This document shows positions 3,288 to 49,154 of a stretch of DNA of 64,000 nucleotides, in pieces. The notes beneath the pieces are model-generated. The model worked only from the letters and a program-made list of their open reading frames with translations. It ran no database searches and was not told the origin of the DNA. The DNA lies in contig NZ_CP039889.1 in the NCBI RefSeq assembly GCF_005221325.1, positions 992,001 to 1,056,000 of the forward strand, in the 5' to 3' direction. The stretch is from Agrobacterium tumefaciens. GTDB taxonomy: Bacteria > Pseudomonadota > Alphaproteobacteria > Rhizobiales > Rhizobiaceae. A program made the translations under genes and the position numbers. The stretch's first letter is position 1. Each line of letters begins with the position of its first letter.

Positions 3288-3446
3288 AGCGCGATCCACG
3301 GCGACCGATGGAGATTTACGATCCTGGGTGCCTACAAAAGTAGGTGGGTACCGTGTGTCCAGCCCCACGGGACTGGCCAGGGACAGCTCCCTTTGGATCG
3401 AGTATGGCCCCAGGGATTGTGGTTCCTGTCGGGAAGCGCAGAACGC
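3288..3446 (-). ncRNA. ssrS: 6S RNA
   Basis: Regulator of sigma70-RNA polymerase. On the minus strand, between zapA and the cyclo-ligase operon (the conserved ssrS position), the sequence carries alphaproteobacterial 6S hallmarks. AATCCCTGGG near 3410-3420 can pair with CACCCAGGATCG near 3320-3331. A 3'-side hairpin CCTAC-TTTT-GTAGG lies near 3330-3345. A GGGA-GCTG-TCCC apical hairpin lies near 3378-3392. GCGC...CGAC at the 5' end can pair with GTCG...GCGC at the 3' end as the closing stem. The ends are approximate, set from that stem. A 74-codon open frame across it (3285-3509) is not a protein gene. Confidence 0.82.
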
Positions 3447-3524
3447 ATCCAAGATATAGGACGGATTGAAGGAAACCGCCAGAGGGCCGATAACGAATTT
3501 TGCCGGCACGGAAAGTTCGCCCGA

Positions 3525-14056: not shown

Positions 14057-14155
14057 CGGGCAGGCTTTAAAAGCTATAGCAATACCCTCAAGCGACAGAT
14101 TGCGCGCACAAAAGCTAACCGGATTAAAGATTCTGGCGCAGTCTTTCGTTTACCA

Positions 14156-14170
14156 TTAACCAAAAATTAA
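14156..14170. promoter_or_regulatory. CtrA box (TTAA-N7-TTAA), distal, upstream of rcdA
   Basis: A perfect full CtrA site: TTAA, seven bases, TTAA. It sits where the -35 element of a promoter with TACTAT at 14185-14190 would lie, the usual position for CtrA activation. The consensus match is direct; binding is inferred. Confidence 0.65.
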
Positions 14171-14194
14171 GCTTTCTGAGAGATTACTATACAT

Positions 14195-14294
14195 GTCCAG
14201 TTCTTCTGGACCTCAGGCATCTTCTCCATACGGCGAATTGGTCTGATTTTTCTCCCTGTTTTACCTTGAGAGCCGCTTTCGCGGCTCTTTTTTT
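14195..14294 (+). ncRNA. Candidate small RNA, about 100 nt, between DUF1192 and rcdA
   Basis: The interval begins at a hairpin (GTCCAG-TTCTT-CTGGAC, 14195-14211) just after a TACTAT -10-like element. It ends in a strong terminator (GAGCCGC-TTTC-GCGGCTC plus seven T, 14270-14294). The terminator follows no protein gene closely: DUF1192 ends 214 bases before it. Two unpaired pyrimidine runs, CTTCTCC (14221-14227) and TCTCCCT (14251-14257), are anti-Shine-Dalgarno-like, as in several rhizobial regulatory RNAs. The CtrA box at 14156-14170 would control it. Alternatively, this is only the distal 3' end of the MFS-DUF1192 mRNA. Confidence 0.45.
14270..14294 (+). terminator. Rho-independent terminator in the DUF1192-rcdA spacer
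   Basis: GAGCCGC and GCGGCTC pair around TTTC and are followed by seven T. It ends the candidate small RNA or the MFS-DUF1192 transcript. Confidence 0.88.
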
Positions 14295-14326
14295 GCCGGT
14301 CGCCGGAATTCGTAAAACTGTGGGTA

Positions 14327-14341
14327 TTAACCCTTCTTTAA
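14327..14341. promoter_or_regulatory. CtrA box (TTAA-N7-TTAA), proximal to rcdA
   Basis: A second perfect full CtrA site, downstream of the terminator and 116 bases before the rcdA ATG. It is placed to control rcdA itself. In Caulobacter rcdA is reported as a CtrA-regulated gene, which supports the reading. Confidence 0.65.
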
Positions 14342-14457
14342 TAATTGCCTTGCGCATTTCAGGTAAAGATACCATCCTGAAAACACTAAAGGCCGGAACA
14401 AAATATCCGGGTCGTCGTTGCCTGACAGTGTGGTGCGTGAGCAGGGATTTAAAGAAA

Positions 14458-14973
14458 ATGTCGGAACAGGTTTTAAATACCATAAGCTTTGCGGGTCGCG
14501 CGGCTGCTTCCAACCAGTTCAAGTCCCTCTATACCGAAGGCATGACCTTGGTCGAGGAAACGGCGAGCTATCTCGATGGTGCCGGTCGTACGGCTTCCAA
14601 GGTTCTGCCGCGCATGGCCTCCGTGCTTTACGCAGCGGAATCGATGCGCCTCACCACCCGCCTGATGCAGATGGCATCCTGGCTGCTTTTGCAGCGCGCC
14701 GTCAACAATGGCGAAATGACCCGTGACCAGGTCCTCAGCGAAAAAAACAAGGTGCGGCTCGACAGCTTCAACGTTGACCGCAACGCGCCGGGCTGGAACG
14801 ATCTGCCGGAATCCTTCCGCGACCTCATCGAGCGGTCGCTGCGCCTCCAGAACCGCGTTGCCCTGCTCGACCGCGAAATCTATCGCCCGGCCGAAGCAGC
14901 CAAGGTGCCGGACAACGAAAACAGCGTACAAGCGCAGCTCAACCTGCTACGCACGGCTTTCTCGATCAACTGA
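14458..14973 (+). CDS. rcdA: Protease adaptor RcdA (DUF1465)
   Basis: In Caulobacter, RcdA is an adaptor that helps deliver CtrA and other substrates to ClpXP through CpdR and PopA. The 171-residue product starts MSEQVLNTISFAGRAAAS and contains TLVEETASYLDGAGR and ESMRLTTRLMQMASWLL, typical of the family's three-helix bundle, then a linker and a short C-terminal tail. I choose the ATG at 14458 because it gives family length; the open frame upstream to 14266 overlaps the terminator and a CtrA box. Expression probably depends on the CtrA box at 14327-14341. Confidence 0.9.
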   Translation: MSEQVLNTISFAGRAAASNQFKSLYTEGMTLVEETASYLDGAGRTASKVLPRMASVLYAAESMRLTTRLMQMASWLLLQRAVNNGEMTRDQVLSEKNKVRLDSFNVDRNAPGWNDLPESFRDLIERSLRLQNRVALLDREIYRPAEAAKVPDNENSVQAQLNLLRTAFSIN

Positions 14974-47237: not shown

Positions 47238-47654
47238 GAAACGATGCTGTCACATACAATAAAATTCAATAGGATTTGTTGAACGATTTACGATCGCCCT
47301 GTGTAAGCATAGGACAATTCCGTGCCAAATTGAAACGTTTTAATCTTCGTATATTAGAAATATTTCGCTATTGCGGCGGCTCCGCACGGCAAGCCGGATC
47401 GGCGCATTCGGGGTGCCGGTTCGCTCGGCAGGCGCCGCTGATTATTCATCCACGCCCGACGCCGAAATCCCTACCGATCTTTATCAACTGTTAACCATAA
47501 AAAACCTATTGTTAAAGCGATGTTAAAACTTGCGTCGCCTGTCTGGTCCCTGGTTTCTTCACGTCATTTCATAGGCCTGCCAATCATCGGGCCTGAAGAG
47601 ATGCCTTGGTGGGCTTTCGATCCGGCATCGGCCAAACTCGCCGGGTGAAAAGGA
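47238..47654 (+). other. 417-base intergenic region with one CtrA box
   Basis: Spacer between the divergent PAS and barrel genes. It holds an AAACGTTT palindrome at 47333-47340 and a full CtrA site at 47512-47526 (listed separately). Otherwise I see no RNA gene or terminator. Confidence 0.5.
47512..47526. promoter_or_regulatory. CtrA box (TTAA-N7-TTAA) upstream of the barrel gene
   Basis: A perfect TTAA-N7-TTAA site 129 bases before the start of the outer-membrane barrel gene. A further TTAA is at 47491-47494. The match is direct; regulation is inferred. Confidence 0.55.
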
Positions 47655-49154
47655 ATGAGCGTGAAGGGCACCGCCACACGTCTGCCGACGTCGCGGAAAG
47701 CAGCAACCCTGCTGCTTGCCTGCACGATTTTTTATCCGTCCGGAAACGCCTTCGCACAGACTGCAGCGACAGCCACACCAATGGTGCCGGGCGCCGCTTC
47801 CGCTGCTGACGGATCGCTTTCAACCGCCCCGGCGACGAACGGCACCACAGGCACAGGCACAGGCACAGCTCAGGCCACACCCGCGCCTGCTCCGCAACTC
47901 TGGCGTCCATCAAGCAATCCCGGCGACCCGATCTACGAACAGCCCGACGAAGCCAGCCAACCCTCTGCCGAGGCCGAAAACCCCTACGAGCCGACAATGG
48001 ACGGGGGGGAAAATCCGCGGGTAGCAACCGAACCCGGCCAGACGCCCGGCATCCGGCTCGGCACATTCGTGCTCAGGCCTTCGATCAGCCAGACGGTGAA
48101 TACGGAAAAACAGACGAATACGGGCGGCCCCTCCAGACGCAATTATTTGACGACGGGCATACGCGGCACGCTCACCAGCGACTGGTCCCGGCACGCGCTG
48201 ACGGTGACGGGCGATGGCGCCTGGGAAAGAAACTTCGGCGGCGACAAGGATGGCGAAGAACCGCGGGCAAATATCGAGGCCAATCTGCGCCTTGACCTCA
48301 GTGCGGAAACGACCGCCAATCTCAAGGCGGGTTACGAATTCAGCCGTGAAGACACCACGGACCCGAATGCTCTGACCGGCGCTGCCGTGCAGGGTGGCGA
48401 GCATCGCTTCACCGCCGGCGCATCGATAGAGCGGGATTTCGGCAAGCTGCGCGGGCTGGCAGCGCTCGATCTCTCACGCACCGTCTATACGGATGCAAAG
48501 GGGCTCGATGGCAGGCCGATCAGCCTCAGCGATCGCGACCAGAAGGGCGCGAACCTGCGCGGACGCATTGGCTATGAACTGTCGCCGGCTTTAATCCCCT
48601 TCCTCGAACTGAATGTGGGGGCGACCAAATATGACAGCCGCCTCGACAATTCGGGTTATGCCCGTTCCTCCAATGCCTATGGGGCGAAGGTCGGCGCGGA
48701 AGTCGATCTCGGCGAAAAGACGCGCGGCGAGGCCGCCATCGGCTATCTGCGCAAGGAATATGACGATGATCGTCTGGCTGCAATCGGCGCTCTGACGCTG
48801 GATGGCAAACTCAACTGGTCTCCCCAGCGCGGCACGAATGTCAATCTCGGATTGCGCACGACGATAGAGGACTTTGCCGGCGGTCCGCAGGGCGGCTGGA
48901 TTTCCTATCGGCTGGATGCCGGCCTGACCCATGAATTGCGCAACAACCTGGTCGCGCGTCTGACGGGGCAGATCGTGCATCGCACATTCCCCTCCTCCAA
49001 CACCGAGAATGCCGTGGAATATACGGCGGGTGCCGGCCTGACCTGGGGGCTGAACCGCTATCTCGACCTGACCGCAGACGTCAGCTACCAGTGGACCCCG
49101 GTTTACGACAGCAATGAATTTCGTGTCGGCGCGGGACTTGTCCTGAAACGATAA
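47655..49154 (+). CDS. Outer-membrane beta-barrel protein (BBP2-like porin fold)
   Basis: A 499-residue exported protein. A signal peptide (cleavage near AFA/QTA at about 35) is followed by a disordered Thr/Ala/Pro-rich segment (to about 135). A C-terminal domain of repeated amphipathic strands follows, such as HALTVTGDGAWERNFGG, TANLKAGYEFSREDT, LGLRTTIEDFAGG and LTADVSYQWTPVYD. It ends VGAGLVLKR, as outer-membrane barrels do. It resembles the 'putative beta-barrel porin 2' family. RBS AAAGGA is close to the ATG. A CtrA box lies upstream, and galU is convergent downstream, hinting at an envelope or polysaccharide role. Confidence 0.83.
   Translation: MSVKGTATRLPTSRKAATLLLACTIFYPSGNAFAQTAATATPMVPGAASAADGSLSTAPATNGTTGTGTGTAQATPAPAPQLWRPSSNPGDPIYEQPDEASQPSAEAENPYEPTMDGGENPRVATEPGQTPGIRLGTFVLRPSISQTVNTEKQTNTGGPSRRNYLTTGIRGTLTSDWSRHALTVTGDGAWERNFGGDKDGEEPRANIEANLRLDLSAETTANLKAGYEFSREDTTDPNALTGAAVQGGEHRFTAGASIERDFGKLRGLAALDLSRTVYTDAKGLDGRPISLSDRDQKGANLRGRIGYELSPALIPFLELNVGATKYDSRLDNSGYARSSNAYGAKVGAEVDLGEKTRGEAAIGYLRKEYDDDRLAAIGALTLDGKLNWSPQRGTNVNLGLRTTIEDFAGGPQGGWISYRLDAGLTHELRNNLVARLTGQIVHRTFPSSNTENAVEYTAGAGLTWGLNRYLDLTADVSYQWTPVYDSNEFRVGAGLVLKR

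Follow-up and report, generated by a model that had tools for sequence, protein, structure and literature searches.

A predicted small RNA of the BjrC1505 family upstream of rcdA is very likely under CtrA control in Agrobacterium tumefaciens

The cell cycle of Agrobacterium tumefaciens and related bacteria is governed by the master regulator CtrA. Upstream of rcdA, the A. tumefaciens genome carries two perfect copies of the CtrA-type motif TTAA-N7-TTAA, and between them lies what looks like the gene of a small RNA (sRNA) about 100 nt long. What is this RNA, which of the two boxes belongs to it, and does it act on the neighboring rcdA? We examined these questions in a window of 64,000 nucleotides (contig NZ_CP039889.1, positions 992,001 to 1,056,000), by which we mean the whole stretch of DNA that was analysed, and in genomes of the same genus, family (Rhizobiaceae), order (Rhizobiales) and class. 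A first-pass annotation, made from the window's letters, had proposed two exact boxes, a TACTAT promoter element, a strong terminator closing the putative transcript and rcdA as the downstream gene. All of these held up: both boxes lie where they had been placed and far exceed shuffle expectation, TACTAT is read directly from the sequence, an independent scan recovered the terminator, and the gene was identified by its Pfam match. The features of the locus are as follows (window coordinates).

14156 to 14170, plus strand: CtrA-type box 1, TTAACCAAAAATTAA, an exact TTAA-N7-TTAA at the -35 position of the putative sRNA promoter
14185 to 14190, plus strand: putative -10 element TACTAT
14195 to 14294, plus strand: sRNA gene, predicted divergent form of the BjrC1505 (RF02356) family, about 100 nt, putative 5' end
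14195 to 14211, plus strand: stem-loop 1, from the predicted fold, with compensatory changes
14213 to 14246, plus strand: stem-loop 2, from the predicted fold, whose outer stem does not vary among 19 genus rows and which has compensatory changes in a sister clade
14247 to 14267, plus strand: conserved linker and candidate seed, with the core CUCCCUGUU at 14252 to 14260
14268 to 14294, plus strand: intrinsic terminator from the terminator scan, a 9-pair stem (14268 to 14289) followed by T to 14294
14327 to 14341, plus strand: CtrA-type box 2, proximal to rcdA, TTAACCCTTCTTTAA, an exact match
14440 to 14447, plus strand: candidate linker-pairing site before the rcdA start, AGCAGGGA, 8 pairs with one G-U, by eye
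14458 to 14973, plus strand: rcdA (DUF1465; Pfam PF07323, E 1.5e-60)

The motif TTAA-N7-TTAA occurs three times in the 64-kb window, compared to a mean of 0.06 in shuffled windows, and none of 100 shuffles reached three. Box 1 starts 39 nt upstream of stem-loop 1, and the letters TATAC in the -10 region are invariant across 19 aligned sequences (rows) from the genus. A generic sigma-70 scan of the window called no promoter at the sRNA locus. The third perfect box (47512 to 47526) lies about 130 nt before a 499-amino-acid open reading frame (47655 to 49154) that, read by eye, resembles an outer-membrane beta-barrel protein.

The interval between the boxes has the properties of a structured RNA. 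Three stem-loops are predicted for the RNA at 14194 to 14294, with a folding z score of -5.0, and none of 200 shuffled sequences was equally stable. Among the 19 genus rows, which were picked regardless of stem and omit one sequence containing an N (L072), two of the six pairs of stem-loop 1 show compensatory changes; 99.2% of cells pair in this stem, falling to 35 to 46% when the partners are slid. A larger set of 45 rows raised the count to three of six pairs, in a sample (45 of 124 distinct sequences) whose stem pairing is favoured because its rows were selected for a first stem-loop of 17 nt. No terminator pair varies across the genus rows, and all nine are invariant in the 45-row set. In the sister clade (12 rows), eight of the 18 predicted pairs carry compensatory changes, seven of them in stem-loop 2 and one in the terminator. 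Covariation is thus not limited to the terminator; confinement to the terminator would have spoken against the first-pass proposal. A 40-row alignment, also picked regardless of stem, yielded no compensated pair and a predicted structure lacking stem-loop 1; we put this absence down to a misalignment artefact.

The linker is better conserved than stem-loop 1 or stem-loop 2. Its CUCCCUGUU core never changes in the 40 alignment rows, and 87 of 109 order members from beyond the family carry it. Only 74 of 124 single-sequence folds leave at least 80% of the linker unpaired. Comparison of relatives therefore supports a structured sRNA with a stretch of C and U resembling an anti-Shine-Dalgarno sequence, as had been proposed.

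Is this RNA new? The first-pass annotation knew of no described RNA arranged in exactly this way, and the view that the RNA itself is undescribed did not survive. At the Rfam gathering threshold, the only hit in the whole window was 6S RNA (RF00013, 77.4 bits; 3289 to 3447, minus strand), which had suggested a new family at our locus. A relaxed search overturned that suggestion, aligning the window RNA to the full length of RF02356, BjrC1505 (model positions 1 to 140; window 14149 to 14294), at 36.5 bits and E 1.1e-5. This is below the RF02356 gathering score of 50 bits, and the assignment is carried by relatives and by genomic position. The best RF02356 match in the A. tumefaciens genome is the sRNA locus before rcdA. 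When nine relatives were scored against RF02356, eight reached 51 to 106 bits, above the cut-off, and the Sinorhizobium meliloti copy (L151) reached 27.8 bits, below it. We also built a covariance model, R1, from 45 sequences of our own family, including the window sequence and leaving the box outside the model; its E-values are rough, from a short calibration. R1 finds four order members (L226, L228, L233 and L236) that RF02356 itself scores at 82 to 106 bits, and the order relatives that it finds adjoin rcdA on its upstream side in 97 of the 99 cases with a listed place. Judged by these comparisons, the sRNA is a divergent branch of the known family BjrC1505. It shares with the model a full-length match in order and model, the terminator and the CUCCCUGU core; it differs in a changed stem-loop 2 and linker and in its score below gathering, the last also true of the S. 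meliloti copy. The RF02356 cut-off thus misses at least two Rhizobiaceae copies, the window RNA and L151.

Because the first positions of RF02356 align with the CtrA-type box and promoter of the window locus, the family model seems to include promoter DNA. A class-wide RF02356 search at E 0.001 found matches in 13 of 142 genomes, ours included, six of them above the cut-off; the boxes in these matches are not independent evidence, since the model includes the box region. A second candidate family, suhB/mmgR (RF00519), was rejected at 22.1 bits (E 0.012; 14216 to 14302), below its gathering score of 41. The stretch that holds one BjrC1505 member also gave a subthreshold match to the ar9 sRNA (RF02343; L236:525-652, 35.4 bits versus 45). 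BjrC1505 was described by Madhugiri in 2012, and the RNA reportedly falls in nodules.

The distribution of the RNA was assessed at three depths. A 381-base query against 61 genomes matched all 37 genus members (our own included) and gave short matches in two of the 24 others. At E 0.01, R1 matched 135 of the 151 family genomes and 115 of the 199 order genomes, and every match listed in either set covers model positions 1 to 99. Eight of the 16 family genomes lacking a match are at most 2.0 Mb in size. Within our own genome there was one strong, full-length match (E 2.6e-17); the runner-up (E 0.017; L199, G000:C2:613505-613569), whose locus lacks a CTCCCT stretch, is probably a chance match. 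Position relative to rcdA was not a criterion of the R1 search. Even so, 130 of the 135 family matches end 150 to 550 nt before the first PF07323-matched position of rcdA on the same strand, as do the same 97 of 99 order matches (91 of 93 when our own family is removed; for the other 16 of the 115 order matches no rcdA place is listed). Among named genomes, a pattern scan recovered at least 80 loci, including S. meliloti 4H41; of the loci listed, 71 of 80 are followed by rcdA on the same strand, and the sequence slices of the other nine end soon after the RNA. The RNA occurred in none of 20 order genomes without a detected rcdA versus 115 of 179 with one, and R1 found no match in the remaining 64 rcdA-bearing genomes; this co-occurrence is confounded, and the genome counts are not independent, because the genomes share ancestry. 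The comparison shows conservation well outside the genus for the predicted RNA and for its structure, box and place.

Such constancy of place could mean that the RNA is a cis-acting leader of rcdA, in which transcription from box 1 reads toward the gene and the terminator serves as an attenuator. The same-strand position shortly before rcdA fits this reading, as does the report that agrobacterial rcdA has more than one transcription start in all three lineages (PMC10469942). However, five of the 135 family members place the RNA away from rcdA, and three loci outside the order (L346, L347 and L352) showed no rcdA by tblastn on stretches of about 3 kb, from which a diverged rcdA could escape. 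The invariance of the terminator stem in the 45 rows and the presence of box 2 as a separate candidate promoter for the family's rcdA also count against a leader. Because some members sit away from rcdA, we have mostly set the leader reading aside and regard it as quite unlikely. The five family exceptions may represent only about two events, since four of them (L221, L222, L223 and L225) follow what by eye is apparently the same kind of gene, one resembling an AMP ligase. In L225 the RNA lies 4.7 kb before rcdA.

To which transcript does each box belong? We compiled 77 rcdA-upstream regions from the family, 37 from the genus and 40 from other members chosen, nonrandomly, as the highest entries in the PF07323 list. 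All 77 have a perfect rcdA-proximal box no more than 240 nt from the rcdA start, and 65 have two perfect boxes; in 36 of the 37 genus genomes the two are 160 to 180 bases apart. The 65 upstream boxes contain 37 different N7 sequences between unchanged TTAA halves, and the halves are therefore the conserved part. Outside the family, 95 of 108 order loci carry TTAA-N7-TTAA (7 or 8 of 8 letters) at -42 to -34 relative to where the R1 match begins, 45 of them perfect (a 109th locus was too short). Perfect upstream boxes in the 109 loci numbered 52 with a spacer of 7, compared to 4, 0, 4 and 2 with spacers of 5, 6, 8 and 9, respectively. Only five of the 109 had another perfect box in the 500 nt downstream. 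Of the five family loci away from rcdA, four have a box at -38 that is perfect, and the remaining one matches at 7 of 8 letters; L224 has a further perfect box, 146 nt downstream of the RNA. A perfect box is also present at L346, L347 and L352, loci found with RF02356, whose model includes the box region.

The upstream box stays with the RNA away from rcdA, while a second box is rare outside the family; for this reason box 1 most likely belongs to the RNA as its promoter, and the rcdA-proximal box is most likely a family feature in the main. The link between the upstream box and an sRNA promoter, first proposed from the window, is thereby supported by order-wide spacing and by the loci away from rcdA. 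These results also bear on the idea that the two boxes act for rcdA alone, with box 1 as a distal site of the rcdA promoter and the RNA as a by-product without function. Published surveys do predict CtrA sites upstream of rcdA (PMC3616915, PMC2877005, PMC10469942). Against this idea stand the covariation of stem-loop 1, the linker's conservation beyond that of stem-loops 1 and 2, the near-fixed spacing from box to RNA across order loci and the retention of the box where the RNA lies away from rcdA, and we consider it very improbable.

If box 1 is the promoter of the RNA, does CtrA act there? It could instead be that a real BjrC1505-family RNA has a box used by another regulator, or used mainly for repression, with no activation by CtrA. 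The support for CtrA at this locus comes from sequence, and in S. meliloti rcdA mRNA was unchanged on CtrA depletion (PMC4433202), both of which leave room for that possibility. However, the site agrees with the core of TAA-N7-TTAAC, the consensus by which CtrA sites are sought in S. meliloti; the motif stands at -35, where the box is found in most CtrA-activated promoters of Caulobacter (PMC11264516); and a CtrA ChIP-seq peak lies at the S. meliloti rcdA promoter region (PMC4433202). On balance we think this alternative unlikely. The further proposal that CtrA drives rcdA itself is half supported: the proximal box in 77 of 77 family loci and the ChIP-seq peak speak for it, and the unaffected mRNA speaks against it. 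The authors of PMC4433202 suggested missed effects, or compensation by other control, as the cause of the unchanged mRNA. A CtrA-driven RNA directly upstream would offer another answer to why CtrA sits at S. meliloti rcdA without a measured mRNA effect, and we infer that it would fit both this mismatch and the multiple rcdA starts.

Taken together, the comparisons make a conserved sRNA of a known family under CtrA very likely. Our main reading, to which we assign a probability of about 0.75, is that the locus encodes a free-standing, trans-acting BjrC1505-family sRNA of about 100 nt, activated by CtrA through box 1 and terminating before rcdA. Phosphorylated CtrA would bind box 1 over the -35 region and activate the sRNA, which would be made while CtrA is active and stop at the terminator ahead of rcdA; the CUCCCUGUU linker would be the seed, acting on mRNAs at their ribosome-binding sites. 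If so, a named RNA family gains a specific circuit in a large order of plant symbionts and pathogens. Among the literature matches listed, none links a BjrC1505-type RNA with CtrA or rcdA, in a search that left most subscription papers outside, and the name atu3742 is not mentioned in the main texts of two Agrobacterium sRNA papers, PMC3738593 and PMC4201532. What we did not find described is the putative control of the RNA by CtrA, and the overall arrangement.

Besides BjrC1505, the nearest parallels come from four other sRNAs. The Caulobacter RNA CcnA likewise has a predicted CtrA site in its promoter and a level that is lower when CtrA fails, and its CCCC loop reaches GGGG in the ctrA and gcrA leaders; compared by description, it is unlike the window RNA in sitting at the origin of replication and acting on ctrA and gcrA (PMC8959179). 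GspR and EcpR1 of S. meliloti are alike in being sRNAs that act on cell-cycle mRNAs (PMC5928217, PMC4414408). EcpR1, unlike the window RNA, lies downstream of divK-pleD and is stress induced (PMC4414408); GspR is 143 to 144 nt long, is reported from Sinorhizobium/Ensifer only and has no known promoter signature (PMC5928217). PmaR (C10) of A. tumefaciens also binds target mRNAs through a C-rich loop, but it is encoded on the circular chromosome between two hypothetical open reading frames and has a long-stem, single-loop structure (PMC6234868). As these sources describe them, identity of the window RNA with EcpR1 or PmaR is ruled out by locus, and identity with GspR by range (135 of 151 family genomes versus Sinorhizobium/Ensifer only).

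The adjoining gene was assessed as a candidate target by pairing the linker with rcdA windows (-30 to -1) of the family, 45 after de-duplication of 86, with 16 sister-clade loci omitted. None of 300 shuffled linkers paired as well with these windows as the real linker does (z -4.1). The 6-mer CAGGGA occurs in 26 of the 45, compared to one of 59 DUF1192, none of 10 rpmE and none of 20 ABC windows (MFS and fba windows were outside this tally), and AGGAG occurs in none of the 45. Pairing did not beat all 300 shuffles in the DUF1192, rpmE, ABC or MFS windows. However, the control gene fba also beat all 300 (z -2.7), and in 70 rcdA leaders from outside the family pairing was nonsignificant (z -1.07; 20 of 150 shuffles as strong). 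The pairing is also weaker in part of the genus (AGCAGGAT), and the target assignment is therefore weak. We conclude that in the family the ribosome-binding site of rcdA may be a pairing partner of the CUCCCUGUU stretch, and that rcdA is a candidate target there only.

These observations suggest a tentative extension of the main reading. Across most of the order, the CtrA site that has been ascribed to rcdA would be the promoter of an ancient CtrA-driven sRNA, which in the Rhizobiaceae would have been rewired onto rcdA as an incoherent loop; we hold this extension to be possible and, on present evidence, doubtful. In such a family-level local loop, CtrA would raise rcdA transcription through the second box, and the sRNA would hold back RcdA translation by pairing with the CAGGGA ribosome-binding site, the least certain step of the scheme and one that we would sooner doubt than accept. 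Were it true, CtrA would make both the rcdA mRNA and an RNA blocking its ribosome-binding site, delaying CtrA's own destruction, and the loop could explain how CtrA occupies the rcdA promoter without a change in rcdA mRNA.

A pattern search of our own genome for the seed complement before ATG gave seven sites, compared to one for the reversed pattern. By eye, the seven include no obvious cell-cycle gene and no convincing target; the frames that follow them include a DUF1059-like protein and an ABC-type binding protein. A minimal upstream open reading frame considered just ahead of rcdA was dropped, as its frame or stop, checked by eye, was not kept among relatives. The element in which it had been sought, (A/G/T)TGCGT, is itself conserved in much of the family, where it directly precedes the ribosome-binding site of rcdA (window 14420 to 14457; L021 to L077).
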